From contig JAJDEH010000164.1 in assembly GCA_029259935.1 (NCBI GenBank), forward strand, positions 1 through 24,819: a stretch of DNA of 24,819 nt. Reading direction: 5' to 3'. This DNA comes from Planctomycetota bacterium (GTDB lineage: Bacteria; Planctomycetota; Planctomycetia; Pirellulales; Pirellulaceae). Below the pieces are notes generated by a model, which was not told where the DNA came from, did not search any database, and was given only the letters and a program-made list of their open reading frames with translations. Positions 6,676 through 24,819 of the stretch are shown piece after piece; the first letter of the stretch is position 1; every line of letters begins with the position of its first letter. Both the position numbers and the translations under genes were made by a program.

Positions 6676-8268
6676 TTATCCGTCCTCGGAGTTTCGCACG
6701 TCCACGAGTTCGCGGTATTGGCCCGAATTGAGCTTGGCTTCCGCCGGTTCGATGAAGCGATTATAGATCGCAATGCCCTCCAAGACACCCTTCCAATCCG
6801 CGCCCCCGACGTAGCGATCGCCAAACAGAATGTGCTGCGGCACCCAGTTGCTCAAATCGCCGTCGATCTTCAAGTCACTTGATTTAGGTGTTTTGACACC
6901 GTCGAGGTAGGCACAAAGACGGCCCGACTGAAAGGAAACGATCAAGTGATGCGGCAGTTCGTCCGGCAAGGTAGCGACCGGGACGGCAACGCCCTGGGGG
7001 GACTTTGACGTGCGAATTCGGGCAACAAGCTGGTTGCCTTCCTGGCTGAGCAGGAAGTTATGGCTATCTTCGGATGTGGAAAGCGAAAGGATCTCGGCCG
7101 ACTCTTGTACAAGGTTCGCTGGGCGAACGAACGCTTCGAATGAAAAAGAATTGCTGCGTTTGCAGGCTTCGACGAGATCCGTCTCGATACCTTTAGCCTG
7201 CCAATATCCGTTGGTCAGCGCCATGGCTCCTTCATGGTTCACGCCGGCAAAGTCGTGCGGCTCGGCGACACTCTGACGATAGAGCCCCGTTCTGGGATCC
7301 TTGACGAAATTCACCTGGTTGTGGGATTCAAAGACAAAGAGCAAACCCTCGCGGTTCGAAGGCCACGCCAATTCGCTTCCGACGAGAGTTTTCTGGGTAA
7401 CAATGCCGTAGTGGTTTTCCCGAACGTTCCAGGATCCAGGACGACCCATGGTTCGCTCCAACTCGACCGTGCCTTCGGTGACGTACAGCCGGGTCTGCAA
7501 CGGTTCCGCAGCCAGGATAAACTCGGTTCCAACCACGGTCGCGAGGGCGATGGGTGTTTCGAATACCATGTTGGCCGAACCGCGTTGGGGAGTGACTTTG
7601 GCGGAAATCTGACCCGCGTCGAGGCCAATCCTTTTGCCGCCGTCAGATGCCGGTGACACGAAGCGAACGATACTATTTCGACCAACTTGCACTTCCGTCC
7701 CGTCGTCGGTGTAGCTAAAGACGACTTCATTTTCCGCCGAGGTCTGGATCATGTCTCCCAGGCGAAGCTTGAACGGCACTCCGGAAGTGACCTCCTTACG
7801 AACGCCGTCGCGGGTCACCGTGGCACTGCCGTCCAAGGATTTGATTTCCGCGACATAAGCGAATTGAGGAGCGGCGTAAAAGTAACCGCCGGCGCCAACT
7901 CCCACGGCGCCACTGAGCAACACCGCCGCCGCCAGCCAACTTGCAGCGCGGCGGCGAGACCGACGGTTTCGTTCGTTCCATTGCAGCAGTTCGTCTTCCG
8001 CGATGTCGCGGAGGTCATTCACTTGTTCGACCAACTGCTGTTCGCCCATCGTGTAATCGCGAATCCGCTGCTCGACTTGGGCCAGGAATCCCTGCCGGTC
8101 GACGGCGTACCGCTGGCCCAGCAACTCGTTCAACACCAGTTGCTCTTTGAGTTCGGTCGCCAGAGTCGGTGACTCGTGAAGTTCACGGAGCAGCGTCTCC
8201 ATCTCCGCTTCGGTCACCTGATCGGGATCGTCAAGAAATTTTTCGATGATGGCTTGAGCGGCGGTCAT
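6676..8268 (-). CDS. FecR-domain membrane protein with C-terminal LamG domain (putative anti-sigma partner)
   Basis: The protein has 530 residues. The cytoplasmic N-terminus of about 107 residues is acidic and helical (DDPDQVTEAEMETLLRELHE), of the kind seen in planctomycete anti-sigma-like proteins. One membrane segment lies at about 109-131 (WLAAAVLLSGAVGVGAGG), preceded by the arginine cluster NRRSRRR, which sets the C-terminus outside. A FecR domain follows at about 165-270 (LRLGDMIQTSAENEVVFSY, ATVVGTEFILAAEPLQTRLYVTEGTVEL). A LamG sandwich occupies about 372-508 (HHLIVSFQSGRLCAYLDG, IYNRFIEPAEAKL). It starts 3 nt after the ECF sigma stop codon and has no Shine-Dalgarno of its own, so it is probably translationally coupled. 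The likely role is to sense an extracytoplasmic, perhaps carbohydrate, signal and control that sigma factor; the ligand is unknown. Confidence 0.88.
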   Translation of the reverse strand: MTAAQAIIEKFLDDPDQVTEAEMETLLRELHESPTLATELKEQLVLNELLGQRYAVDRQGFLAQVEQRIRDYTMGEQQLVEQVNDLRDIAEDELLQWNERNRRSRRRAASWLAAAVLLSGAVGVGAGGYFYAAPQFAYVAEIKSLDGSATVTRDGVRKEVTSGVPFKLRLGDMIQTSAENEVVFSYTDDGTEVQVGRNSIVRFVSPASDGGKRIGLDAGQISAKVTPQRGSANMVFETPIALATVVGTEFILAAEPLQTRLYVTEGTVELERTMGRPGSWNVRENHYGIVTQKTLVGSELAWPSNREGLLFVFESHNQVNFVKDPRTGLYRQSVAEPHDFAGVNHEGAMALTNGYWQAKGIETDLVEACKRSNSFSFEAFVRPANLVQESAEILSLSTSEDSHNFLLSQEGNQLVARIRTSKSPQGVAVPVATLPDELPHHLIVSFQSGRLCAYLDGVKTPKSSDLKIDGDLSNWVPQHILFGDRYVGGADWKGVLEGIAIYNRFIEPAEAKLNSGQYRELVDVRNSEDG

Positions 8269-8271
8269 GAA

Positions 8272-8799
8272 TCACGACTGTTTGGCGAGAGAGTGTGCGA
8301 TACAATCCTTCAACTGCGCCCGGATTCGATGCAAGGCGACGCGCACCGCTTCGGCGGTCGAATTGATGGCCTCGGCAATTTTGGCGGACGGCAGATCTTC
8401 GGTATACCTCAGCAATAAAATACGGCGGCTCTTCTCGGGCAGTTTCTCGCAGCAGCCGTCGAGGGCAAACTGCATCGACTTTTGTTCCCCTTTTTTCTCC
8501 AACGGCGAGTCGGCGGTGGCCAGGATTTCGACCAGCGCCTCGCGGTGCAAACGTCCTCGACGTGAAATCCGTCGAATATGGTTCAAGCAAAGATTGCGGG
8601 CAATTCCCTTGATCCAGCGTTCAATCGCGACGTCGCTGGGAACGCGATGAAAATTGCGGAACAGCTCGACATAAACATCTTGCGCCACATCGTCGACTTC
8701 ATGCGAAGCGATTCCCATGCCGGCAATGTAAGCCCGGATGCGCACTTGGGTTTCACGCAGGACAGTGTCAAAGTCCGCCCCTGCTAGCTCATTGGACAT
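8272..8799 (-). CDS. ECF-type RNA polymerase sigma factor
   Basis: The protein has 175 residues. Region 2 spans about 15-90 (HEVDDVAQDVYVELFRNF, then ERWIKGIARNLCLNHIRRISRR), where ECF factors bind core polymerase and the -10 element. Region 4 spans about 118-170 (LPEKSRRILLLRYTEDLPSAKIAEAINSTAEAVRVALHRIRAQLK), a helix-turn-helix for the -35 element. The linker is short, as in ECF factors that lack region 3. GGGAG stands about 6 nt before the ATG at 8799. The gene is followed after 3 nt by the FecR/LamG gene, so the pair forms a sigma/sensor unit. The PQQ/LamG gene downstream is a plausible member of the same operon or regulon. Confidence 0.92.
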   Translation of the reverse strand: MSNELAGADFDTVLRETQVRIRAYIAGMGIASHEVDDVAQDVYVELFRNFHRVPSDVAIERWIKGIARNLCLNHIRRISRRGRLHREALVEILATADSPLEKKGEQKSMQFALDGCCEKLPEKSRRILLLRYTEDLPSAKIAEAINSTAEAVRVALHRIRAQLKDCIAHSLAKQS

Positions 8800-9000
8800 A
8801 CGGGCTCCCTGATGGCATCCACCTTATAGTCGCCATGGGCAGCGGCTGATGTTACACGATTCCACAACAATTTGGAGATCGGAGATGGAGACGTTGCCAT
8901 GGGCGGTCAGCGAACTCAGCTTAAGTTATTTGCCGTGTCCGGCAAGCCGTCGATGACGCAAAGCGTTTCAGTCATTGGGGTTATGCGACGAATGCGATTG
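8800..9000. promoter_or_regulatory. Upstream region of the ECF sigma operon
   Basis: This 201-bp gap lies between the stop of the alpha/beta hydrolase (9001) and the ECF sigma start (8799), both on the minus strand. It should hold the promoter of the sigma/FecR operon. I see no confident -35/-10 pair, terminator or small gene in it. Confidence 0.35.
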
Positions 9001-10881
9001 TTAGTCCCCGCCGGGTTGGCGGCTGGCCGCCGGCAAGTACGCCTTTCGCCTTCGGACGGGTTCGCCACCGATCCAGCGGAGATCGGAGAGCTTCGGTACG
9101 GCTCCCTGCCATGGCTTGAGTCTCGCCGCCGCTGGAACTTCGGCTTTGTCACCGGCCCGAAAGATAAGCTCGGTGATGCCGGCCCAATCATCCATAGGCT
9201 CATCCGCATCGTTGGTAAATCGAGTGGCGTTCAATTCGATCCGCTGCCGGCCAGCCTTGTCCAACGGAAAGAGGGCCGTCCAGATCATGCGCTTTTTGCG
9301 GGCGTATCCGCGCCAGGCATCGGTGTGAAGCTGCACCGCGAGGGTATTGCCGGGCTCGCTTGGGGTAACTTCGAAGGCCAGCTTCGCTCCGCGCGGCGCT
9401 TCCCATCGAGGGTCGGCCAGCTTGCGCGTGGCAAACAGCCAATGATGACGATTGTTGGCGTTCAAGGTGTACCAATCGCGGAAGCCGCGGCTAAAGTCGT
9501 CGATGGCGCGGCGCGGCTGCTCGGTGGCCTGCACGCTCGATTCGCGCAACTGGCGGGGATAAGCGGCCCGATAGGTGCTGAGTGCAAATGTCGCCGGGTC
9601 GCCGTCACGTCGCGCGCTTTCCGGCAGCCGGTAATAGACATTCGCCAAAGCAAACAGCGGCTCGTCAAGATCCAGCACGGGGCAATCCGCCCGCCAAACC
9701 CCATCGCTTTCGATCGCGCGGCCATCCGTCCAAAAGCGATTGCGAGGATCGCGCCCGTATCCGTAATACAAGTCGACTCGGTCAACCGGCAGGGACCGGT
9801 CCGGATGGACGCGAAACAGCGGGATGCCCGAGTCGCGTTTCAGCACCAGTTCGGCGGCTGGTGTTTTGGGAAAGGTCAGCCGCTTTTGCAAATGAGCGTC
9901 GAACCACAACGGCCGCGCGATTTCCGTTTCCGCCGTAAAGCGGTGATTCAAATGCGGCGCGTAAACGGTGCGTTTGTTTTCGTGTTCGACCAGCCGCATG
10001 CCTCGATCGACCAAGTCCATTGGCGCGTTAAAGTCATTCGTCGCACTGAGAAACAAGATCGGACATTGAACACGAGCCAGGTAGGCTTGGCCGGCGATCG
10101 TTCTCCGGAACAGATCGACGTTGCCCCGCACCTTCCGCGCGGAATCGCGAAGCCCCCACATGTCGGTTTGCAGGAAGCCACTACCGCCAACCGACGGCGA
10201 TGCGGCTTTAACTCGCGGGTCGCTGCCGGCGACCAAACCGGTCAGCCGACCGCCCATCGAGTGGCCGAAAACTCCGATACGTTCCGCATCCACATTCTCT
10301 TGCCGCTCGAGAAACGTGATGCCTCGCCGGCAACCGATCGCCAGCAAGAACCAATTGTTGTTGCGGGCAGACGGAAATGGATCCACGGTGTTTTCCTTGG
10401 GCAGCAGGTTGGAGTAGCCGCCGACGTTGCCTTGCGTGGGATCGACCGCTCCCCAGTCCGTATTCGCGTCACCCTCTTTTGCGCCTTCCATCGGTCGTCC
10501 GCCCCAGTTGACCGACAGTACCGCATAGCCTCGTTTGGCGTACCGTTTCACGACGTTCAAGAACGCACGCTGTCCACCGCCGTGCATGTGCATGACCGCC
10601 GGAAGATTCTCGCCGCCGGTCGGAAAGCCATGAAAAGCGGCCATGCGAGCAGGCCGGCCCTTGAACGTGCCTATGGAATAGACAACATATCGCAACGTGA
10701 TACCGTCTTCCTTCCACTCGCGAACGACTTCTATATTCAAAGGCTCGGTTCGCGGATCGTAGTCCGACCACAATTGCTGGACATCTTGGGGAGAGGCGTT
10801 CAGATGGGGCAGGGAATCGGCGCCGGATGCCGTCGAACTGGCGATGAACACAGCGAGAAGGGCTAGTCGGGTTTGCTTCAT
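9001..10881 (-). CDS. Secreted alpha/beta hydrolase (acetyl-xylan-esterase/peptidase-like) with C-terminal domain
   Basis: The protein has 626 residues from the ATG at 10881, chosen because MKQTRLALLAVFIASSTASG is a clean signal peptide; the open frame continues 69 nt further upstream without one. The esterase core includes an oxyanion region HMHGGGQ (about 98-104), the strand YAVLSVNWGGRP, and the nucleophile elbow GHSMGG with Ser208. A candidate acid lies in LSATNDFNAPMD and a candidate histidine in APHLNHRF. From about residue 340 onward there is a further beta-rich region (PLFRVHPDRSLPVDRVDLYYGYGRDP, then GNTLAVQLHTDAWRGYARKK). Family knowledge: such exported hydrolases in planctomycetes act on esters of polysaccharides or related compounds. 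The substrate is not determined here. Confidence 0.87.
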   Translation of the reverse strand: MKQTRLALLAVFIASSTASGADSLPHLNASPQDVQQLWSDYDPRTEPLNIEVVREWKEDGITLRYVVYSIGTFKGRPARMAAFHGFPTGGENLPAVMHMHGGGQRAFLNVVKRYAKRGYAVLSVNWGGRPMEGAKEGDANTDWGAVDPTQGNVGGYSNLLPKENTVDPFPSARNNNWFLLAIGCRRGITFLERQENVDAERIGVFGHSMGGRLTGLVAGSDPRVKAASPSVGGSGFLQTDMWGLRDSARKVRGNVDLFRRTIAGQAYLARVQCPILFLSATNDFNAPMDLVDRGMRLVEHENKRTVYAPHLNHRFTAETEIARPLWFDAHLQKRLTFPKTPAAELVLKRDSGIPLFRVHPDRSLPVDRVDLYYGYGRDPRNRFWTDGRAIESDGVWRADCPVLDLDEPLFALANVYYRLPESARRDGDPATFALSTYRAAYPRQLRESSVQATEQPRRAIDDFSRGFRDWYTLNANNRHHWLFATRKLADPRWEAPRGAKLAFEVTPSEPGNTLAVQLHTDAWRGYARKKRMIWTALFPLDKAGRQRIELNATRFTNDADEPMDDWAGITELIFRAGDKAEVPAAARLKPWQGAVPKLSDLRWIGGEPVRRRKAYLPAASRQPGGD

Positions 10882-11226
10882 GGATTGCGTTGGACTTTCA
10901 AGATGCCAATGTTCGGTCGCGGAGGGCGTTTTCATCGTTCGCGAAAACACGGATCACTAATAAAGCGCGCTCGCGGCCCGCCACTCTTCAACGCGCCGTC
11001 ACGACAAATGGAGGCCGCCAGAATTTGAAAAAGAGGAGCGGAATGCACAGGGGAGAATATAGGAGCGGATATTCTAATTTTCAATCCACCCGCGGCCGTG
11101 ACAAAGAAGAACGTCCTCGTTGACAAACCTCGACCACGAAAGATCGTCCTTGTACAACATGCTACAATAGCAGTAGGCGAGAGTCCTTGATTCTCGAGCG
11201 ACCACTCTGGGTTGGAGCCACGACAA
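10882..11226. promoter_or_regulatory. Divergent intergenic region
   Basis: About 345 bp separate the minus-strand hydrolase from the plus-strand small ORF, so promoters for both must lie here. A TTGACA at 11120-11125 and a TACAAT at 11163-11168 are present but 37 bp apart, too far to be one promoter. GGAG at 11214-11217 is the ribosome binding site of the small ORF. No RNA gene or repeat is visible. Confidence 0.4.
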
Positions 11227-11448
11227 ATGGATGAAGCCGCCGACAACAACGCCCAAATCGAAGCCTGGCTCAAGGAAGAAGGCTATCAACCCGACCAGAT
11301 AAAGAAAATCTTGGCGCGGGTAACCGAGTACGAGGAGCAGACAAAGTTTCTCTCAGGGATGGACTCCGTCGAGAACAGTGAATTCGGCATCAACGCCATC
11401 ATCGCGGAAGCCTTGGGCAAAATGGATCCGCCATCCCAAGACGAGTAG
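11227..11448 (+). CDS. Small acidic protein of unknown function (73 aa)
   Basis: I do not recognise this protein. It starts MDEAADNNAQIEAWLKEEGY and is rich in acidic and helix-forming residues. A short helix-turn pattern (IEAWLKEEGYQPDQIKKILARVTEYEEQT) resembles a UBA-like or small helical bundle, but that is only an impression. The ATG at 11227 has GGAG 9 nt upstream; an in-frame TTG at 11212 overlaps that GGAG and is less likely. The frame ends 34 bp before the convergent folA gene. Coding is supported by the ribosome binding site and the clean soluble composition, not by homology. Confidence 0.6.
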   Translation: MDEAADNNAQIEAWLKEEGYQPDQIKKILARVTEYEEQTKFLSGMDSVENSEFGINAIIAEALGKMDPPSQDE

Positions 11449-11482
11449 TTTCCGGGTTTCACGGCCGACCGATGAGCCAAAC

Positions 11483-11992
11483 TCAGTCAGCCGTTTCGCT
11501 GGTGCGTTCCTGTCGCTCGTAGAGCAAAAAACTGTATGCATGATCGTTGCGATGGTCGGCGTCGTGGCGTTCCTCGGCGACTTGTGTCCATTGATCCTCG
11601 GGTAAGTCCTCGAAAAACGTGTCGCCTTCAACGGTTGCATGCACTCGTGTCCAGTAGATTCGGTCCGCGTGCGGCAAGGCTTGCCGGTAGATCTCCGCGC
11701 CGCCGATCACGAAACCTTCGTTGTCGCCAGCCGCCATTTGGATTGCTTGTTCCAGACTATGAGCGACCAGCGCGCCGCCTCCGTCATAGGTTGGGTCTCG
11801 CGTCACGACAATCGAGGTGCGACCCGGCAACAAGCGACCCAACGACTGAAAGGTCTTTCGGCCCATGATAATGGCATGCCCAATGGTCAATCGTTTGAAT
11901 CGTCGCAGATCGTCGGACAGATGCCATGGCAGGGTTCCGTTGGCACCAATCACGCCGTTGTTCGATACCGCGATGATCAGCGAAAGAGTCAT
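11483..11992 (-). CDS. folA: Dihydrofolate reductase
   Basis: The protein has 169 residues, the usual length for bacterial DHFR. It reduces dihydrofolate to tetrahydrofolate with NADPH in the cytosol. Seen directly: the N-terminal [23 protein letters not shown], the catalytic acid Asp28 in LSDDLRRFK (equivalent to E. coli Asp27), the NADPH motif [25 protein letters not shown], and the late motif [25 protein letters not shown]. Its start overlaps the thyA stop by 4 bp (ATGA), so the two are translationally coupled. That makes functional sense because thymidylate synthase produces the dihydrofolate that FolA recycles. The tail after LLYER is a short charged extension. Confidence 0.97.
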
Positions 11993-12783
11993 ACGGCCAC
12001 CGGAGCCGCGATGCGAGGATGTGGATCGTAGGCTTCCAGCCGAAAATCCTCGTAGTGGAAATCAAAGATCGACCGCACATCGGGATTCAATTCCATCGTC
12101 GGCAGATCCTTCGGCTGACGTGAAAGTTGTAGATTGGCCTGATCGATGTGGTTCTGATAGAGATGCACGTCGCCAAAGGTGTGAATGAATTCACCCGGCT
12201 GCAAGCCGCACACTTGCGCCACCATCAGCGTCAACAGGGAGTACGACGCGATGTTGAAAGGCACTCCCAAAAACACATCCGCGCTGCGCTGATAAAGTTG
12301 GCAGGAGAGTCGATTTTCCGCCACATAAAACTGAAACAACAAATGGCAGGGCGGCAGCGCCATTTTGGAAACGTCGGCCACGTTCCACGCCGAGACGATC
12401 AGTCGGCGCGAATCCGGATCGGTGTTGATTCGTTCGATCAATTGGCTGATTTGATCCACGCAACCACCGTCGACCGTGGGCCAGGATCGCCACTGATAAC
12501 CGTAAACCGGTCCGAGTTCTCCGTCTTGGTCGGCCCATTCGTCCCAAATTTTGACACCGTGTTCTTGCAAGTATCGAATGTTGGTGTCGCCGCTTAGAAA
12601 CCACAGCAGTTCATGAATGATCGACTTCAGATGCAGCTTTTTCGTGGTCAGAGCGGGAAAGCCGGCGGCTAAATCGAAGCGCATTTGAGCGCCGAAGATG
12701 CTGAGCGTTCCGGTGCCGGTACGATCGGACTTTTCGATGCCTTCGTCGACGATTTTTCGCAATAGATCTAAATACTGTCGCAT
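11989..12783 (-). CDS. thyA: Thymidylate synthase
   Basis: The 264-residue length matches the E. coli ThyA class exactly. It methylates dUMP to dTMP using methylene-tetrahydrofolate and yields dihydrofolate. The catalytic cysteine is Cys146 in [14 protein letters not shown], the same number as in E. coli. Other signatures are the phosphate-binding [11 protein letters not shown] near 21-31, the substrate motif [21 protein letters not shown], and the folate/dUMP-binding [12 protein letters not shown]. The last residues IAAPVAV match the conserved ThyA C-terminus. GGAG lies upstream of the ATG at 12783. The gene sits 40 nt after the SNF2 helicase stop and overlaps folA, so a three-gene minus-strand transcript is likely. 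Confidence 0.98.
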
Positions 12784-12823
12784 GACCGTCTTTTACTCCG
12801 TTGCGAATCGACTGACAAGCGGG

Positions 12824-15800
12824 TTAGGTCAGCAGCAGTTGCAGGTCTTCAGTCGTCAGGCTGCGAATAAGGCTGTTGTCGGCCGAGACGATCGCGTCGG
12901 CTAGATCCCGCTTGCTCTTTTGCAATTCGAGAATCTTGTCTTCGACCGTATCGCGGCAGATCAGGCGATAAGCGAACACGCGGCGGGTTTGGCCGATGCG
13001 GTGGGCCCGATCGACCGCTTGCGCTTCGACCGCCGGATTCCACCAGGGGTCGAGGATGAACACATAATCCGCGGCGGTCAGATTGAGGCCGTGACCACCT
13101 GCCTTGAGGCTGATCAAGAACAACTGGCATTTCGGATCTTCCTGAAACTGCTTGACCTTGTCGCCCCGCTTGCGGGTACGGCCATCCAAGTAGGCATAGG
13201 GCAACTTCTTCTTGTCGAGGTGTCCGCGGACGATCGACAGCAAACTTGTAAACTGCGAAAAGACCAGCGCCTTGTGCCCCTCATGCAGCACTTCCTCTAA
13301 CTGTTCCAACAGAGCCTCCAGTTTGGCGCTCGGCTCGTCCGCTTTCTGCTTGTCGATCAAGCCAGGATGACAGGCGGCCTGCCGCAGCCGCAACAGCGCT
13401 TCGAGGACATGGATTTTCGACTTCTTCAGTCCCTGTTCCTCGACCTTCTTCGATAGCATCAGGCGATAATAATCTCGCAGTTCATCGTATTCTTTTCGCT
13501 GCTTTTTGCTCATTTCGCAGTACAGCGTCTGTTCGGTTTTTTCCGGCAGTTCCGTGAGGACTTGGTCCTTGGTCCTTCGCAAAAGAAACGGACGCAAGGC
13601 ATTCGCCAACAGGGGCAGCGAGCCGTTTTCTTCGCCGGGTTTGGTTTTCGAGAGCGCGGCGAACGCCGTCGAACGGCCGAGCATGCCGGGGTTGAGAAAC
13701 TCGAACAGCGACCACAACTCACCCAGGTGATTCTCCACCGGCGTTCCGGTCATCGCCAGACGATGCTCGGCTTTTAACAGCCGACAGGCTTTGGCGGCTT
13801 GCGAGTTGTGGTTCTTGATGGCTTGCGATTCGTCGAGAATCGCATAGTCAAACACAATTTCCTTCAGCTCGGCGACGTCCCGCCGTAACGTGCCATAGGT
13901 TGTCACCAGCAGATCGCACTGGTCGAGTTCCTCCAGTTGGCCCTTGCGGTCGAGCCCCGTGTAATTGCGGACGCGCAATTTGGGCGCGAATCGCGTCGCT
14001 TCATCGATCCAGTTAAACACCAAGCTCTTCGGCACCACCACGATCGACGGCGCGCGACGGGAACCACTTGGGACACGCCGCTGGCGTCTCGACTGCAACA
14101 ACGCCAGCACCTGGACCGTTTTGCCCAATCCCATATCGTCGGCCAAGCAGCCGCCAAAGCGAAACTCCTGTAGAAAATTCAGCCAGCCCAGTCCTTCGCG
14201 TTGATATTCCCGCAGTTCGCCTTGAAAGCCGCGTGGTTCCTGGCGTTTGTCGACACCCTCGAACGACTTCAGCTTCTTACGCATCTGGTCGAATTGGCGG
14301 TCGACATCCACATTGTCCTGCTCGGCCAGCATCGCGTCCAACAACAGCGCCTGGCACGACGCAAACCGCAACGATCCGTCCGACTCTTCACCCAAGCGAG
14401 CCAGCCCGCTATAACGCTTGAGCCATTCTTCGGGAAGTATCCCCTTCGAGCCGTCGTCCAGCACCACGAACTCGTCGCCGTCGCGAACCGCCGCCAGCAA
14501 GCGTGGCAGCGACGCGGAGACGCCGCCGAAATCAACCTCGCCTTCCAATTCGAACCAGTCGACATCCGTCGTGACGCTCATCCGAACCGCGCCGGGCCGC
14601 CGAATCCGCAAGCCGTCCTTGGCCTCGATGATCCAGCCTTTTTCTGTCAGATTCTTGACAATTTGAAAGAACTGTTTTTCAGAGAACTGAACGTCGACTT
14701 CACCACCGAAATAGCCCCCGGCTGGCTGAATGTCTTGCTCATTTAACTGCGCCAGCAACTGCCGTTCGGTGTCGCCGTCGCGCACCAGGATGCGATTTTG
14801 TTCCGGGTCGAACTGCGCCCGTTGTTCGTTTTTCAGTGAAATGGTTTGCTCGCCGTAATCAAATCCGACATTGCCAAACATCAGATGGCGAGGCTGATAA
14901 TCCAACGGCCCAACGACGGCCAACCGCCCCGTCGGTATCAGTTTCTCTTCCGCGGGCTTCAGTTCCGGGGGCAACGCGATTTCAGGAATTTGCGGCAGCG
15001 AGCAGAGCCAATTCAGCCAGGGGTCGCGATCGCTGAAGGGCACTTCGATAGGAGACGACCGCAGCGCCTCGATCCAGGGGGCCTGACTGCCATGGAAACG
15101 GGCCAGTCGATCAGGGAAAACGGTTAGCCCGTTTTCAAAGCAGCAAACGGCATCGCCCAGCTTCTTGGTTTCCTCGCCGCATGCAAAGCAACCATCCAGA
15201 GTCCAGCATTGGCGTTCTTCGTTGGCCTGCATTTCCAGTCGCAGTTGCCAGGGCTCCGCGTCCCAAGTCAGCGGCATCGCTTCTGAAATCGGCAGCGATG
15301 AGTTTAGCTGCCACACCAGCCGCCCAGTCGCCGCGATCTGGGGCAGAATCAACTCGATCAGGTCGCTGGGAATACTGAACGACGAGGCTCGATGGTAGTC
15401 GTATGCCCCGTAGTTTCGGTAGGAATTATAGTATTCGTCGGGGGTCGGCAATCGCGACAGAAAGCGGCAGATGGGTCGATCCTGTTCGTCCTGCAAATGA
15501 TCGACTTGCGCCGAGTCAATCGCGGCTCGCGTGAACTTACCCCACTCGCCATTTTTCTTGGTCTCTCGCTTGTATAACGAAATCACCAAGGAACTCCGCG
15601 CTATGCATTCACTGGTATCAAGCACATACCAAGTTTCGCGTTTCTTCGAGTTCTCGGCATCCCAGGACGAGCCCGTGGGGTGCGGTGGCGAATTCGACAT
15701 CACGTCGCGGACCTGAACCATCCAGTCTGGCGCGGACGATTCGGCGCGATGCCCAACCTGGGGAAAACCTACTATGGGCGGCCCGTCCAGGAATTCGTCA

Positions 15801-21127: not shown

Positions 21128-22078
21128 CTACACCATGGCGGCTCCAAACAGTTCGTCCAATTCAAATTCCGCGGCCATGTCGCGAAGTTTGGCCACGGCC
21201 CGCTGTTCCAGCTGCCTGACGCGTTCCTTCGACACGCCAAGCTTGTCGGCCAGACACTGAAACGTCCGGACTTTCAAATGGGCACCCAGGGCATATCGGG
21301 AACGGATAATGAACCGTTCGCGCCGGTCGAGCTTGCCCATCATGGAAGCGGTCAGTTCGCGAAGATTGCTCCATACTTGATCGCTCATCGTCGACGAACC
21401 GCCGCTGTCCTCTTGCTCGAACGCGGCTTGATCGGGATCACTGGCGTAGCGTGCCTCTTCCTTGCGGGCCGTCATGATCGCGCGGTACGCATTCCGAGCG
21501 ATCGAGCGATAAGCGTAAGTGCTGAAGCGAAAGCCGCGGTCATAGTCGAACTTCTCGACCGCCTGCATCAGGGTGAAGATACCGTCACTCAGCATTTCGT
21601 CGAAAGACTGCTGGGGCGTCACGAACTTCTTCACAATGGAGATGACAAGCCGCGTGTTCGCCTGAACGATGTGGTCGCGCACTCTTTGGGCTTTCGCCAG
21701 CAGCCAGTCGATGGCCGCCACCACCCGTGCGTCGACTTGATCCGGGTCGAGCCGTGCGCGGAGTACGTTGGCGCGGAACTTTAAGTAGTTCATTTCTCGG
21801 AACAGGGCTTTTTCCTGGACGTGTGTCAACAAGTCCGACTCGCACATGCGGCGTAGGTGAGCCGGCAGATCAGCCGGGGCCTTGGTTGGACAGTCGGACT
21901 GCCGCAGTGTCGATTCGACGATCTCGTCTTCACTGTCGTCCACCGCCCGAAATTCAGGATTGGGAATAAATTCGATCTCGGTTTTCAGCAATTCCAGTGT
22001 GCGGCGACGCAATCCGGTCTTTTCCTTGCGTGAAAGCTGGCGCGGTCGTTGTGAGGTTTCGCGGGTAGCAGCGGTCAT
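21128..22078 (-). CDS. Sigma-70 family RNA polymerase sigma factor (short, planctomycete type)
   Basis: The protein has 316 residues. After a basic N-terminus and an acidic stretch (DDSEDEIVES), region 1.2-like LLTHVQEKALFREMNYLKFRA appears near 83-103. Region 2 follows at about 137-205 (ANTRLVISIVKKFVTPQQSFDEMLSDG, FDYDRGFRFSTYAYRSIARNAYRAIM). Region 4 is at about 246-302 with helix-turn-helix FQCLADKLGVSKERVRQLEQRAVAKL. It therefore binds core polymerase and recognises both promoter elements. Where housekeeping factors read TYATWWIRQAI, this protein reads TYAYRSIARNAYRAI, and region 3 is reduced to a short glutamate/serine-rich linker. This suggests an alternative sigma factor with changed -10 specificity. 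It has a good promoter and paired operator-like repeats upstream (listed separately). Confidence 0.92.
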   Translation of the reverse strand: MTAATRETSQRPRQLSRKEKTGLRRRTLELLKTEIEFIPNPEFRAVDDSEDEIVESTLRQSDCPTKAPADLPAHLRRMCESDLLTHVQEKALFREMNYLKFRANVLRARLDPDQVDARVVAAIDWLLAKAQRVRDHIVQANTRLVISIVKKFVTPQQSFDEMLSDGIFTLMQAVEKFDYDRGFRFSTYAYRSIARNAYRAIMTARKEEARYASDPDQAAFEQEDSGGSSTMSDQVWSNLRELTASMMGKLDRRERFIIRSRYALGAHLKVRTFQCLADKLGVSKERVRQLEQRAVAKLRDMAAEFELDELFGAAMV

Positions 22079-22100
22079 AATTTTGGGCTCCGTGCTAAAA

Positions 22101-22117
22101 TTCGTTCATATCGTTCA
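22101..22117 (-). promoter_or_regulatory. Downstream operator-like direct repeat (box pair A)
   Basis: On the minus strand this reads TGAACGATATGAACGAA, two TGAACGA half-sites 9 bp apart. It covers the expected transcription start of the sigma gene. The same arrangement recurs exactly 60 bp away on the other side of the promoter. Confidence 0.5.
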
Positions 22118-22122
22118 AAGTC

Positions 22123-22151
22123 TTTATACCGCCATTGATCGGCCAAGGCAA
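22123..22151 (-). promoter_or_regulatory. Sigma-70-like promoter of the sigma factor gene
   Basis: On the minus strand TTGCCT (22151-22146) and TATAAA (22128-22123) are separated by exactly 17 bp. The -10 box matches 5 of 6 and the -35 box 4 of 6 consensus positions. Transcription would start near 22116, giving a leader of about 40 nt before the ATG at 22078. Confidence 0.6.
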
Positions 22152-22160
22152 CGGACAAAA

Positions 22161-22177
22161 TCGTTCAAATCATTCAT
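22161..22177 (-). promoter_or_regulatory. Upstream operator-like direct repeat (box pair B)
   Basis: On the minus strand this reads TGAATGATTTGAACGAT, again two half-sites 9 bp apart, located just upstream of the -35 box. It matches box pair A at most positions, and the 60-bp offset is close to six helical turns. Confidence 0.5.
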
Positions 22178-22500
22178 TTTTGGCGAAATTTCCATAAACT
22201 GCTTATTTAATGGTGTTTACGCCATTGTTATTCTCAAATACGGCCTCAAAAGTAAGTTATTTTTGACAGGTTTGACTCGAAATGCATTGGTTAATTCATC
22301 CTTAACGTTCACCTTGGGCTTTTACGTACCTATTGATTGACTGCTAGGCGCGTTTTCCGAACCTATTGACTACGGCGAGTCAATTCCGATACACGGCTGG
22401 CAACCCCGTGTAATTGGAAAATTGAGATCGTGCGGAAGACTCCGCAAATTGGTCTCGGCACGCGTGCTATATTTCAGAGCCACCCTGGAGATTGCCACCA

Positions 22501-22679
22501 TGAATAATGAATTCTCGCTGCCCCACGACGCCAAGGCGCGGCAACACATGCTGCTGGCCGCGGACGTCTCTCAAGCAAAGCGGTCGCCGAAAAATAAGCG
22601 AAGCGAACAGCCGCCCGCCGCCGGGTCACAGGTCGGCTCGGCGAATGCACCGCGTGGGCGATCTTCAGCACGACGTTGA
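22501..22679 (+). CDS. Small basic protein of unknown function (59 aa)
   Basis: I do not recognise this protein. The ATG at 22501 is preceded by GGAG with 8 nt spacing (CTGGAGATTGCCACC), the same layout as other starts in this window. The product begins MNNEFSLPHDAKARQHMLLA and becomes strongly basic and low in complexity (AKRSPKNKRSEQPP, then a tail rich in Arg, Ser and Ala). A disordered basic tail of this type could bind nucleic acid. The N-terminal 25 residues look like real protein; the C-terminal part could be read-out of GC-rich non-coding DNA. It lies between the sigma factor and the Y RNA array. Confidence 0.45.
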
Positions 22680-22887
22680 TCGCGTCCACTGGCACGCGGC
22701 GAATAACGCGGGCGATGCAACGACGGGCTGGGCTGAATAGCTCGCCTGATGGTGGCCGGTCTTGAGCCGACGCGCTGTCGCCTCAATTCAACTGCTTGCC
22801 AGGTCGACATCTTTGTCTTCGAGATGTTGGACTTTTGCTATTTGCGTGCGGACCGAACCGATATCACATCCGCGTGTCTTGAAGGTA
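22680..22887. promoter_or_regulatory. Region upstream of the Y RNA array
   Basis: No coding sequence is supported here. Stem CGACATC/GATGTTG (22804-22810 and 22823-22829, one G-T pair) around a TCTTCGA-containing loop is present. The promoter of the RNA array should lie in this 208-bp gap; TTGTCT and TGCTAT at 17-bp spacing (about 22813-22841) are a poor match, so I do not call it. Confidence 0.35.
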
Positions 22888-23066
22888 GGTCCGACTGCCT
22901 GTCGGGAGTACATGACGGTCCTAAGGTAGCGATGCCGGGCGACTGGCTAGTGAACGGCGCCGGAGTCTCTTGTAGACGATGGGGCCAGTCAACGGTTGGC
23001 AACACAGCTTGCTGGCACGGACGACCGTAACGCCAACGCAACCTCTTGGCAAAACTTCGTCGGGCT
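22888..23066 (+). ncRNA. Y-RNA-like unit 1 (large module with 23S-rRNA-like segment)
   Basis: The closing helix is GGTCCGAC (22888-22895) with GTCGGGCT (23059-23066), eight pairs including two G-U, plus GGAGT/ACTTC. The 5' strand begins GGTCCGA, as human Y RNAs do (from memory). The loop carries a second stem ACGGTC/GACCGT (22915-22920, 23023-23028) and, inside it, a perfect 7-bp stem GACTGGC/GCCAGTC (22941-22947, 22984-22990) enclosing hairpin GTCT-CTTGT-AGAC (22965-22977). Bases 22915-22932 match conserved 23S rRNA exactly over 18 nt. There is no TTCRANT T-loop. Locally CCGAC-TGCCT-GTCGG can form a competing hairpin in this copy only. A T-run lies at 23086-23090, just after the unit. Confidence 0.75.
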
Positions 23067-23082
23067 CTGCTGAAAATCGTCG

Positions 23083-23098
23083 CGCTTTTTGAAAAATA
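23083..23098 (+). repeat. Linker repeat copy 1 (after unit 1)
   Basis: CGCTTTTTGAAAAATA recurs, with one T fewer, after unit 3 at 23352-23366. The T-run followed by an A-run is self-complementary. It may end transcription or mark a processing point between units. Confidence 0.55.
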
Positions 23099-23099
23099 C

Positions 23100-23211
23100 G
23101 GCGACTGCCGGTTGGAGTACATGGCCTCGTCCAGTGAGTCTGGTAGCCGCGATGCGGTGGGCGGGTTCGATTCCCGTACGGAGAAGAAACTCTGGCCACG
23201 ACTTCGTCGCC
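23100..23211 (+). ncRNA. Y-RNA-like unit 2 (T-arm and short acceptor-like hairpin)
   Basis: The closing helix is GGCGAC/GTCGCC (23100-23105, 23206-23211) plus GGAGT/ACTTC. The module has a hairpin CCAG-TGAGT-CTGG (about 23131-23143), a small hairpin CCGC-GAT-GCGG, and a T-arm GCGGG-TTCGATT-CCCGT (23161-23177) with a canonical T-loop. The T-arm is followed by a 5-bp hairpin CGGAG-AAGAAA-CTCTG (23179-23194) in the place where units 3 and 4 have an acceptor-like stem. No canonical D-arm is seen, so this is a reduced tRNA mimic. Confidence 0.75.
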
Positions 23212-23222
23212 AACCAATAGAT

Positions 23223-23352
23223 GACCGACTGCCGATTGGAGTACATCACCCGCCGGTTGCAGGTTCGAGTCCTGCCTTCTCCGCCATCAAACAACGGAGG
23301 TGTAGCTCAAATGGGAGAGCAGCGTACATCTCTGGTCAAAACCTCGTCGGTC
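23223..23352 (+). ncRNA. Y-RNA-like unit 3: YrlA-type tRNA mimic with permuted order and encoded CCA
   Basis: The closing helix is GACCGAC/GTCGGTC (23223-23229, 23346-23352); the inner box is ACCTC, one mismatch to GGAGT. The module reads, in order: T-arm GCAGG-TTCGAGT-CCTGC (23259-23275), acceptor 3' strand CTTCTCCG (23276-23283), CCA (23284-23286), and an 8-nt linker. Then come the acceptor 5' strand CGGAGGTG (23295-23302), TA, and a textbook D-arm GCTC-AAATGGGA-GAGC (23305-23320). Acceptor strands pair at seven of eight positions with one G-U. This is a circularly permuted tRNA in which the Y RNA helix takes the anticodon-stem place, the architecture known for YrlA. Nothing here resembles an anticodon loop, so it is not a normal tRNA gene. 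A TTTT at 23355-23358 follows. Confidence 0.85.
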
Positions 23353-23366
23353 GCTTTTGAAAAATA
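23352..23366 (+). repeat. Linker repeat copy 2 (after unit 3)
   Basis: CGCTTTTGAAAAATA is the second copy of the linker found after unit 1. It starts at the last base of the unit 3 closing helix. Units 2 and 4 are followed by different, shorter linkers of 11 and 9 nt. Confidence 0.55.
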
Positions 23367-23395
23367 TCCCGACGCGCAATGCCGGGACACAATAC

Positions 23396-23546
23396 ACACT
23401 CGACTGCCGAAGTGGAGTACATGGTTTTGCAGGTTCAATTCCCGCCCGGCCCCCTGGGACAGAAACATCGATGGGGCCGGATCTTGTGATTCGCGCGCGT
23501 GCGCCGTTTCGCGAGGATTCTCTCTGCTCATAACTTCGTCGAGTGT
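23396..23546 (+). ncRNA. Y-RNA-like unit 4 (T-arm plus 8-bp GC acceptor-like stem)
   Basis: The closing helix is ACACTCGAC/GTCGAGTGT (23396-23404, 23538-23546), nine perfect pairs, plus GGAGT/ACTTC. The module has T-arm GCAGG-TTCAATT-CCCGC (23429-23445, one mismatch), directly followed by CCGGCCCC (23446-23453) pairing perfectly with GGGGCCGG (23473-23480) across a 19-nt loop. This mirrors the T-arm/acceptor order of unit 3. In place of a D-arm there is a GC-rich hairpin TCGCG/CGCGA (about 23490-23514). A separate hairpin TCCCG/CGGGA (23367-23387) stands in the linker between units 3 and 4. Confidence 0.78.
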
Positions 23547-23555
23547 TGATACACC

Positions 23556-23622
23556 GATCCGACTGCCAGTGCGGAGTACATAACCAACCAACGCGTCTCT
23601 GCACTAACGACTTCGTCGGATC
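23556..23622 (+). ncRNA. Y-RNA-like unit 5 (minimal, module-less) in the Ro60 leader
   Basis: This is the shortest unit, 67 nt. The closing helix is GATCCGAC/GTCGGATC (23556-23563, 23615-23622), eight perfect pairs, plus GGAGT/ACTTC across the bulge. The loop is unstructured and A/C-rich, with no T-arm or other module. Six Ts (23624-23629) follow directly, so it also has the shape of an intrinsic terminator, and the Ro60 ribosome binding site begins 3 nt later. It may be a separate small Y RNA, a leader element of the Ro60 mRNA, or both. Confidence 0.78.
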
Positions 23623-23632
23623 ATTTTTTGAG

Positions 23633-23637
23633 AGGAG
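23633..23637 (+). promoter_or_regulatory. Ro60 Shine-Dalgarno
   Basis: AGGAG lies 6 nt before the ATG at 23644, a strong site that fixes the start. It begins only 3 nt after the T-run of RNA unit 5, so protein binding to unit 5 could cover it. Confidence 0.75.
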
Positions 23638-23643
23638 TTTGAG

Positions 23644-24819
23644 ATGGCCAACACGACATTGTTTTCCAGCACGAAGAGCAAGTTGCCGCGCACGGACTCG
23701 TTCAACGAGGCGGGTGGCCGCGCGTATCAGTTCGCGCCGAAGCACGCGCTGGCACAGATGGCCGCGACAGGCTGCTTCAACGGCGTGTACTACGCCAGCG
23801 CGCAGGACCAGCTTGACGAACTGCGCAAGCTGATCGATCAGGTCGATGACAACGTCTTTCTGGCCAAGTTGGCTGTCTATGCGCGTGAGCGCGCCTACAT
23901 GAAGGACATGCCGGCCGCGCTGTTGGTCGTCCTGTCGAAGCGAGACACGCAGTTGATGCACCGCGTCTTTGATCGGGTCGTGGACAACGGTCGCGTCATG
24001 CGCACCATGTTCCAGATGATCCGGTCAGGACAATTCGGTCGCACCAGCCTGTCGTCCAGCTTGCAGCGGGCGTTCCAGCGGTGGCTGAACGAAGCATCGG
24101 TCGGCAAGCTGCTGTCGGCATCAATCGGTAACGATCCGAGCCTGCGCGATGTGCTGCGGATGGCTCGTCCGACGCCGAAGGACAACAGGCGACGTGCGCT
24201 GTTCGGTTGGCTGACGGACAAGGAGCCCGCCAAGTGGGCTCCCGCGACCGAAGCCGACTTGCCGTGTCAGGTTCAGTCCCTGATCGCGTACCGCCGGGCC
24301 GACACCGCCGAAATGCAGACGTTGATCGTGGGTGATCTGGCGGTCCGTTGGGACTTGCTGGCTGACGCCGCGCTGAGTCCGCTGGTCTGGAAGGCGATCG
24401 CCCGCCAGATGGGTCCGCAGGCGCTGCGAATGAACCTTAACACGCTGTTGCGTCACAAGGTTCTGGGTAACGAGAAGGCTGATTACGAGATGGTGGATTA
24501 CGTGGCGGCTCGCATCGCGGACGCCGAGGCAATTCGTCGCTCGCGTCAGTTCCCGTACCAGTTCCTGGCGGCGTACCTGAACGCTTCGGATGAGATTCCG
24601 CACAAGATCAAGGCGGCGTTGCATCAGGCTGCCGAGATGGCATGCGGGAACGTGCCGGAGTTGCCGGGCCCGGTCGTCATCGGTCTGGACACGTCTGGTT
24701 CCATGTCGATGTCGGCAACTGGCTGGCGTGGACAAGGCGCGACCAGCAAGATGCGCTGTGTCGACGTGCTGGCTCTGTTCGCCGCGGCGATCCTGCGCCG
24801 TAACCCGGATAGCGTGGTG
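23644..24819 (+). CDS. rsr: Ro60/TROVE-domain RNA-binding protein (Rsr), 3' end cut by window
   Basis: The frame is open from 23644 to the right edge, giving 392 residues; full-length relatives have about 500-550. Residues 13 to about 335 form the TROVE domain, a ring of HEAT-like helical repeats ([82 protein letters not shown]). A von Willebrand A domain follows ([20 protein letters not shown]) with the MIDAS metal motif DTSGS at 349-353. Family knowledge: Ro60 binds Y RNAs on the outer surface of the ring and threads misfolded or damaged RNA ends through the hole; bacterial Rsr works with PNPase or near the ligase RtcB in RNA turnover and repair. Five Y-RNA-like units directly upstream fit this role. 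A downstream rtcB gene is plausible but outside the window. Confidence 0.95.

Follow-up and report, generated by a model that had tools for sequence, protein, structure and literature searches.

Y RNAs, the RNA partners of Ro60 proteins, are mimics of tRNA. In the rsr-yrlBA-rtcBA operon of S. Typhimurium, a Ro60 gene (rsr) is accompanied by several Y RNAs (excerpts of PMC7790460), and in RYPER (Rsr-Y RNA-PNPase) of Deinococcus radiodurans the RNA links the Rsr ring to a partner enzyme (excerpts of PMC8394870, PMC7790460 and PMC8058203). In archaea, a TROVE (Ro60-type) gene is reported for 20 of 29 tRNA gene clusters (excerpts of PMC6333295). Here, we analyzed a 24,819-nt stretch of Planctomycetota bacterium DNA (Pirellulaceae; assembly GCA_029259935.1, contig JAJDEH010000164.1, positions 1 to 24,819 of the forward strand; hereafter the window), in which five tandem Y RNA units directly precede a Ro60 gene. 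The units share a paired and covarying outer stem and differ in their heads, one of which is predicted to rebuild helix 69-71 of 23S rRNA and another of which resembles a permuted tRNA, and it is likely that a single Ro60 protein works with several RNAs that resemble parts of the translation machinery. The array and the gene that follows it comprise:

Unit 1, 22888-23066, forward strand: Y RNA with a predicted head mimicking 23S rRNA helix 69-71 in circularly permuted order (179 nt)
Unit 2, 23098-23213, forward strand: Y RNA whose head contains a T-arm (23162-23176) and more hairpins (116 nt; based on boxes, T-loop motif and single-sequence fold)
Unit 3, 23222-23353, forward strand: putative YrlA-type Y RNA with a permuted tRNA head (132 nt; based on Rfam RF02553)
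Unit 4, 23397-23545, forward strand: Y RNA with a T-arm (23429-23445), a stem resembling an acceptor stem, and an additional long hairpin (149 nt)
Unit 5, 23556-23622, forward strand: minimal Y RNA with a stem and a short loop (67 nt)
Ro60 (TROVE) gene, 23644-24819, forward strand: 392 aa, cut off by the window end (PF05731, E 4e-11)

The earlier note on this DNA had proposed a tandem array of five Y-RNA-like units with common boxes directly ahead of a Ro60 gene, and both the array and its position, in the window as in its relatives, were borne out: five 5' boxes (starting at 22892, 23102, 23226, 23401 and 23560) are each complementary to one of five 3' boxes (23054, 23201, 23341 (as ACCTCGTCG), 23533 and 23610). 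Among the unit lengths given at that time (179, 112, 130, 151 and 67 nt), the first and the last stand and the three in the middle were redrawn as 116, 132 and 149 nt. All eight outer-stem pairs form in units 1, 3, 4 and 5, and six of eight form in unit 2. The units therefore have the closed terminal stem made from two conserved boxes that characterizes Y RNAs, and their genes adjoin a Ro60 gene.

Judged by its sequence, the downstream open reading frame encodes Ro60/Rsr, with a TROVE domain and a von Willebrand-type vWA domain with the DxSGSM metal site (here DTSGSM at residues 349-354). The protein is 89% identical to that of locus L001 over the shared part (best segment 88%), and its nearest relatives are planctomycete loci (L and G numbers denote loci and genomes). 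The complete L001 protein contains TROVE and vWA_Ro60 (E 3.4e-13) and matches the solved Deinococcus Rsr structure 2NVO (E 1.6e-18). In having such a Ro60 protein together with RNA, the window resembles RYPER, the difference being that PNPase is the named partner there, whereas the array here holds several kinds of heads.

We compared the array with 54 TROVE loci from a scan of the genomes of 84,980 species, giving 55 sources together with the window; the loci are planctomycete save L029, which is titled only 'bacterium'. A unit finder that required a 5' box with a complementary 3' box, with four inner pairs and at least six of eight pairs in all, returned 237 units on the sense strands, none on the reverse complements and two in one shuffle per source, controls by which chance repeats are ruled out. 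Seven of the 237 calls, one of them at window position 7823, were discarded by position as false. The 230 units kept are all at the Ro60 gene and are spread over 50 sources (the window and 49 of the 54 loci) with 1-10 per source, counts that are lower bounds because the finder overlooks some units, e.g. the sarcin-ricin-like short unit of L018. Among the sources without a unit, L004, L035 and L052 have just 0-62 bases before the TROVE match, in L051 the match begins only at residue 137, and the one 5' box of L003 lacks a partner. Units have a median length of 126 nt (range 62-287, n=230) and are separated by a median gap of 16 nt (180 gaps); the stretch 3' of them is rich in T (57-63% T at +3 to +5), and the distance from the end of the last unit to TROVE is 20-30 nt in 25 of the 50 sources and at most 100 nt in 41. 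The shared 8-bp outer stem is paired and covarying: over the 230 units, its eight pairs are formed in 94.9% of cells (at most 72.4% in 500 random re-pairings) and the outermost four in 89.9% (52.3% in the re-pairing control), with several Watson-Crick types at each of the outermost four pair positions. The finder's own pairing demand inflates these percentages, and the re-pairing control preserves the letters. The proposal that the boxes form a helix thus holds, and this helix is the predicted Ro60-binding part.

By contrast, the view that bacterial Ro60 loci typically contain one or two Y RNAs did not survive: 42 of the 50 unit-bearing sources have at least three units, 24 have at least five, and six ordinary rsr loci have 2-5 Y boxes, i.e. 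4, 2 and 4 at the planctomycete second TROVE copies L109, L110 and L112, and 4, 5 and 5 on the plasmids L119 (Methylosinus), L120 (Novosphingobium) and L121 (Rhizobium). We dropped multiplicity as a novelty, because five units are unremarkable where ordinary rsr loci also have several Y RNAs; the remarkable features are the rRNA heads, the anticodon-like heads and the tRNA island. Many units of the ordinary rsr loci have T-arm heads; helix-69 heads, sarcin-ricin heads and tRNAs were not found in the fetched stretches of any of the six. Against the YrlA model, the plasmid units score at best 49.9 and 60.3, also below the gathering score. The second TROVE genes of L109, L110 and L112 (42-45% identical) stand with ordinary YrlA-type units (box CGAATGCC). 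Compared with the repair operon of S. Typhimurium (excerpts of PMC7790460) and with plasmids L119 and L121, the window likewise combines a Ro60 gene with several Y RNAs, and the boxes are near-identical (CGAATGCC..GGACTACAT versus CGACTGCC..GGAGTACAT), but the Y units in those operons lie between rsr and rtcB with rtcR adjacent, whereas in the window they precede Ro60. The layout with Y RNAs between rsr and rtcB and a divergent rtcR was not seen in the window, which does not extend downstream of Ro60.

What the earlier note had missed is that the heads, by sequence, appear to copy parts of tRNA and 23S rRNA. In the case of unit 1, three elements bear on this:

22912-22932, forward strand: ATGACGGTCCTAAGGTAGCGA, the 3' side of helix 69, continuing in the direction of helix 70/71
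22934-22947, forward strand: short hairpin GCCGG-GCGA-CTGGC in place of helix 71 (helix 5 of alignment A1, 98.6% of cells paired; equated with helix 71 by eye)
23017-23031, forward strand: ACGGACGACCGTAAC, which resembles the 5' strand of helix 69 and here lies 3' (permuted)

The first element is identical to the 23S rRNA of genome G003 at 21 of 21 positions (score 42; best of 20 shuffles 27) and to that of G002 at 20 of 21. Helix 3 of A1 (98.8% of cells paired) joins CGGTC at 22916-22920 to GACCG at 23023-23027, and this unit has an opened helix-69 loop. The likeness of ACGGACGACCGTAAC to the true helix 69 strand has a shuffle p of 0.007 in the window, and the permuted 3' strand reaches p ≤0.05 against the true helix 69 5' strand in 12 of 17 sequences. 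Alignment A1 comprises 14 type-I copies, i.e. unit 1 and 13 relatives, and its predicted fold consists of the Y stem, an inner stem, the permuted helix-69-like stem, the hairpin standing in for helix 71, and additional stems. In this fold, 94.8% of cells are paired compared to 85.6% in shuffles, double changes are seen in 26 of 48 pairs compared to 11.2, none of 500 shuffles reaches any of the five measures, and pairing falls to 28-46% if the partners are slid; these statistics are tilted in favor of the fold because the fold came from the same alignment. The 23S mimic motif is present with at most three mismatches in 22 of the 55 sources. In a second form, A2, the helix-69 hairpin is left closed; this form was found in six loci (L021, L038, L042, L044, L046 and L054) and is also detected by the type-I model (E 3e-20 to 1.2e-10). 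Based on the modeled fold, the head of unit 1 is best described as a likeness to 23S helix 69-71 in which covariation supports a helix-69 stem reassembled from strands in permuted order. An imitation of ribosomal RNA would, if true, make these a new kind of Y RNA; our literature search found no Y RNA with an rRNA-like head, and because its coverage was partial this does not prove absence.

A homing-endonuclease target was considered for the helix-69 stretch, which is an established endonuclease site (I-CeuI), and was rejected because the rebuilt, covarying and permuted stem argues for an RNA role instead. Ribosomal-protein leaders are RNA elements that imitate a piece of rRNA to bind a protein, and a 2018 review by Meyer is said to treat rRNA mimicry in these leaders; they differ from the present case in being mRNA leaders, whereas here the heads belong to Y RNAs on Ro60.

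The tRNA-like heads are exemplified by unit 3. No match in the Rfam scan of the window reached gathering level, and the match of unit 3 to YrlA (RF02553; 23222-23356, 51.6 bits, E 1.7e-10), although below the gathering score, spans the model from 1 to 114 of 114. On this sequence evidence, we regard unit 3 as a YrlA-type Y RNA at full model length, in keeping with the earlier description of the units as Y-RNA-like. Two arms can be placed in it in addition to the acceptor strands:

23259-23275, forward strand: T-arm of unit 3
23305-23320, forward strand: D-arm of unit 3

In unit 3, the terminal stem, the box positions and the permuted tRNA head are as in YrlA, the model of which aligns over its whole length; in contrast, units 1 and 5 are without a tRNA head and unit 1 has the 23S head. 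Units 2 and 4 hold a T-arm motif without a D-arm motif and units 1 and 5 hold neither, so that the heads differ among units, as the earlier note had supposed in speaking of different cargo modules. By motif, the 230 heads fall into those with T- and D-arm (64), T-arm alone (67), rRNA-like (19), short (41) and other (39). The T-arm precedes the D-arm in 59 of the 64 units holding both motifs, which is the circularly permuted order; a solved bacterial Y RNA has a circularly permuted order relative to tRNA as well (excerpts of PMC11472068). Clustered by similarity, the heads of units 1, 2, 3 and 4 belong to clusters of 19, 11, 74 and 31 of the 230 heads, and unit 5, which has almost no head, is without cluster mates. 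YrlA-like units are also present in further ordinary and planctomycete arrays, every one of them below the gathering score.

Our working hypothesis, to which we assign a probability of about 50%, is that the heads are baits or adaptors: they would capture proteins that normally work on tRNA or 23S rRNA and either deliver these to the Ro60 ring or retain them there. In this scheme, the five units would be transcribed, probably together because the gaps between them are short, and then cut apart; the shared stem would dock on Ro60 at its predicted site, and the heads would bind translation-related enzymes of modification, maturation or decay. The array would thereby act as a tool holder in which one ring is fitted with several exchangeable RNA adaptors, and through unit 5, which lies in the Ro60 leader, Ro60 may be able to gauge how much of itself is present. 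In other species, DusA and TruB modify YrlA and a Y RNA tethers Rsr to PNPase (both from excerpts of PMC8394870). One stem occurs naturally with a series of different heads, among them the copy of a named 23S rRNA element, so that the binding partners of the heads are open to direct testing. Alternatively, the units could be gates only, with heads that fold back and close the RNA-binding surface of Ro60 and a likeness that decides which substrate opens the gate. Y RNAs reportedly have such a gate role (Sim and Wolin 2018), and unit 5 with its stem and almost no head would suit it; nevertheless, we consider this unlikely, because the diversity of the heads and a detailed 23S mimic kept across genomes exceed the needs of a plug.

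We also compared the mimic with the 23S rRNA of its host. Helix 69 was readable in 11 of 21 genomes, 10 of which have the mimic, and in 7 of these 10 the mimic has the host's helix 69 variant; these seven agreements represent few independent events because four are of the Rhodopirellula type. A further candidate is a chaperone or guide role, in which the 23S mimic would aid Ro60 in recognizing or refolding immature 23S domain IV and the tRNA heads would do likewise for tRNA precursors. The mimic reproduces an unbroken stretch of domain IV, and an inverted helix-69 pair is common to mimic and host 23S rRNA in L019, L022, L030 and L054, but the hosts in L021 and G001 have the inverted pair and their mimics do not. 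Moreover, a mimic of this kind would compete with the true rRNA and not pair with it, because the resemblance is to the sense strand, with antisense matches of the heads to 23S rRNA staying in shuffle range. Altogether, we find this role improbable, more so than that of a gate.

Next to conservation of the units, their linkage to Ro60 is informative. A covariance search had been set in the earlier note as the test for a mobile repeat scattered away from TROVE genes. Model R1, a covariance model of the unit 1 type with unit 1 as a seed (match 1-176 of 176), gave nine matches in six of 40 genomes of one order, and all nine are at Ro60 islands; the TROVE genes beside them are 70-100% identical to L001, and a TROVE gene of at least 69% identity to L001 is present in 8 of the 40 genomes. 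Two of the six matched genomes (G002 and G004) are R1 seeds, while G162, G158 and G155 were held out; in these three, the mimic lies 0.6-0.8 kb before Ro60, with the 21-nt core ATGACGGTCCTAAGGTAGCGA exact in all three and a 23-nt core exact in one. Among 119 genomes across the phylum, searched with stricter filters, G002 was the sole match, and the system is thus restricted to certain lineages. In 16 genomes, the box pattern gave 76 matches: 63 fall inside the fetched islands, 5 belong to two additional tRNA/Y clusters in G001 and 8 are isolated. An off-register pattern with one extra gap base, used as a control, gave 6 matches. A mobile repeat is ruled out by these searches, in which R1 and box matches concentrate at Ro60 islands. 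It is also very improbable that the array consists of decayed or selfish pieces of tRNA and rDNA or of a repeat that is beside Ro60 by chance: an HNH endonuclease gene does lie within one tRNA array (L001, 462-1058) and one island is split by a serine recombinase element, yet the stems covary, all nine model matches are linked to Ro60 and the pattern is nearly absent elsewhere, with the 8 lone box matches approximating the 6 of the off-register pattern.

tRNA genes are a recurrent part of these islands. At least one tRNA is present in the fetched stretch of 34 of the 54 loci and at least five in 20 (19 without one L024 call that overlaps a Y unit), always before TROVE and on the same strand; because the loci extend at most 3 kb before TROVE, these counts are lower bounds. 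Having tRNAs beside TROVE, the 34 loci resemble the archaeal TROVE tRNA clusters, from which they differ in that a term search of the archaeal paper (PMC6333295) gave no Y RNA. In the window itself, a tRNA scan found no tRNA, and hence no tRNA array at TROVE, the region downstream of Ro60 falling outside the window.

We then scanned 232 heads (the 230 and two added by hand) for 11-mers shared with three 23S genes and one 16S gene. Helix 69 was matched by 17-18 heads in every one of the three 23S genes and the sarcin-ricin loop by three heads in each, two being the hand-added ones. No other place in 23S was matched by several heads in all three genes, although a few single heads recur, and 11-mer sharing with 16S was no more than in shuffles. 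The exact sarcin-ricin 11-mer GTACGAGAGGA was found three times in the ~594 kb that remain of 617 kb of fetched sequence when four 23S loci are left out, and in every case it directly follows a Y box in a short unit (L018 at 2130, L053 at 2144 and L115 at 2700 on the reverse strand). Furthermore, 27 of 59 short units have an anticodon-arm-like element near the head start, with a 4-5 bp stem and a 7-nt loop, and 19 of these 27 combine U33 with a purine at 37 (200 rounds of shuffling: mean 0.58, maximum 4). The units of the window have neither an anticodon-arm nor a sarcin-ricin head.

The copied tRNA and rRNA sites are toxin targets. Ro60 could accordingly be a hub of translation protection, in which the Y RNAs show copies of vulnerable sites (tRNA elbow, anticodon loop, 23S helix 69-71 and sarcin-ricin loop) as decoys that soak up, or sensors that register, the enzymes cutting them, and in which the divergent tRNAs adjoining in relatives are spares. 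The anticodon-arm-like heads, the sarcin-ricin 11-mer in three loci and the tRNAs at 34 loci, with at least five at 20, speak for such decoys, as does a minimal unit between the tRNAs of viral contig L091, and YrlA has been proposed as a competitive inhibitor of an anticodon nuclease (excerpts of PMC7790460). On the other hand, the window has no tRNA and neither of these heads, most tRNA-like heads copy the elbow without the anticodon loop, and the helix-69 loop of unit 1 is opened. A literature search on rRNA-cutting toxins found nothing, and no toxin was looked for in the sequences. Because most tRNA-like heads are without an anticodon, we prefer baits or adaptors to decoys, which we hold to be a tentative alternative and the strongest one.

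Several observations weigh against the bait or adaptor hypothesis and the likenesses on which it builds. The copied heads might equally be decoys. No sigma-70-like promoter was found when sought at 22080-23700. Unit 3 falls short of the YrlA gathering score of 69, and units 1, 2, 4 and 5 have no YrlA match up to E 10. For 5 of the 17 sequences, the helix-69 mimic does no better than shuffles in its 3' strand (p >0.05), and the helix 69 variant of the mimic is opposite to that of the host in L021 and in G001 (mimic in L114) and neither of the two in L041. Finally, ~20 further heads share some 11-mer with the 23S gene of G003 (shuffles: mean 10, maximum 15); these do not recur with the other two 23S references.

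Some additional features of the islands were recorded. In two planctomycetes, long tRNA arrays lie ahead of the Y units (32 tRNAs at 4683-10091 of L089 and 33 at 12092-16475 of L114). G002 has 32 tRNAs before its Y array, with D-arms that by eye are strongly unlike those of the chromosomal tRNAs. The island of strain TBK1r is interrupted by ~58 kb (L114 and L017, around 2700) and a Y unit is halved between the two ends; the open reading frame at 9285-10775 of L114, next to one break, encodes a serine recombinase, and the insertion apparently went into a Y RNA gene. A small conserved protein gene with a weak, sub-cut-off PQQ_2 match lies inside the Y arrays of L022 (1899-2378) and L001 (2366-2731). 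Among viral sequences, the TROVE loci L117 and L118 have no rRNA head, no tRNA and no Y box by the pattern used. The minimal unit of L091 (reverse strand, 8199) has the same boxes and adjoins a gene that by eye resembles a DNA polymerase gene, and L090 from the viral collection (8566-13216) holds 32 tRNAs and Y units and looks like a planctomycete-type island.

In the window, unit 5 ends 22 nt before the Ro60 start and is followed by a T-run; both are within the leader of the Ro60 gene (23556-23644) and could be an attenuator. The upstream neighbor of the array is:

21128-22078, reverse strand: sigma-70-type gene

Between this gene and the array lies a small open frame (22500-22679, MNNEFSLPHD...).

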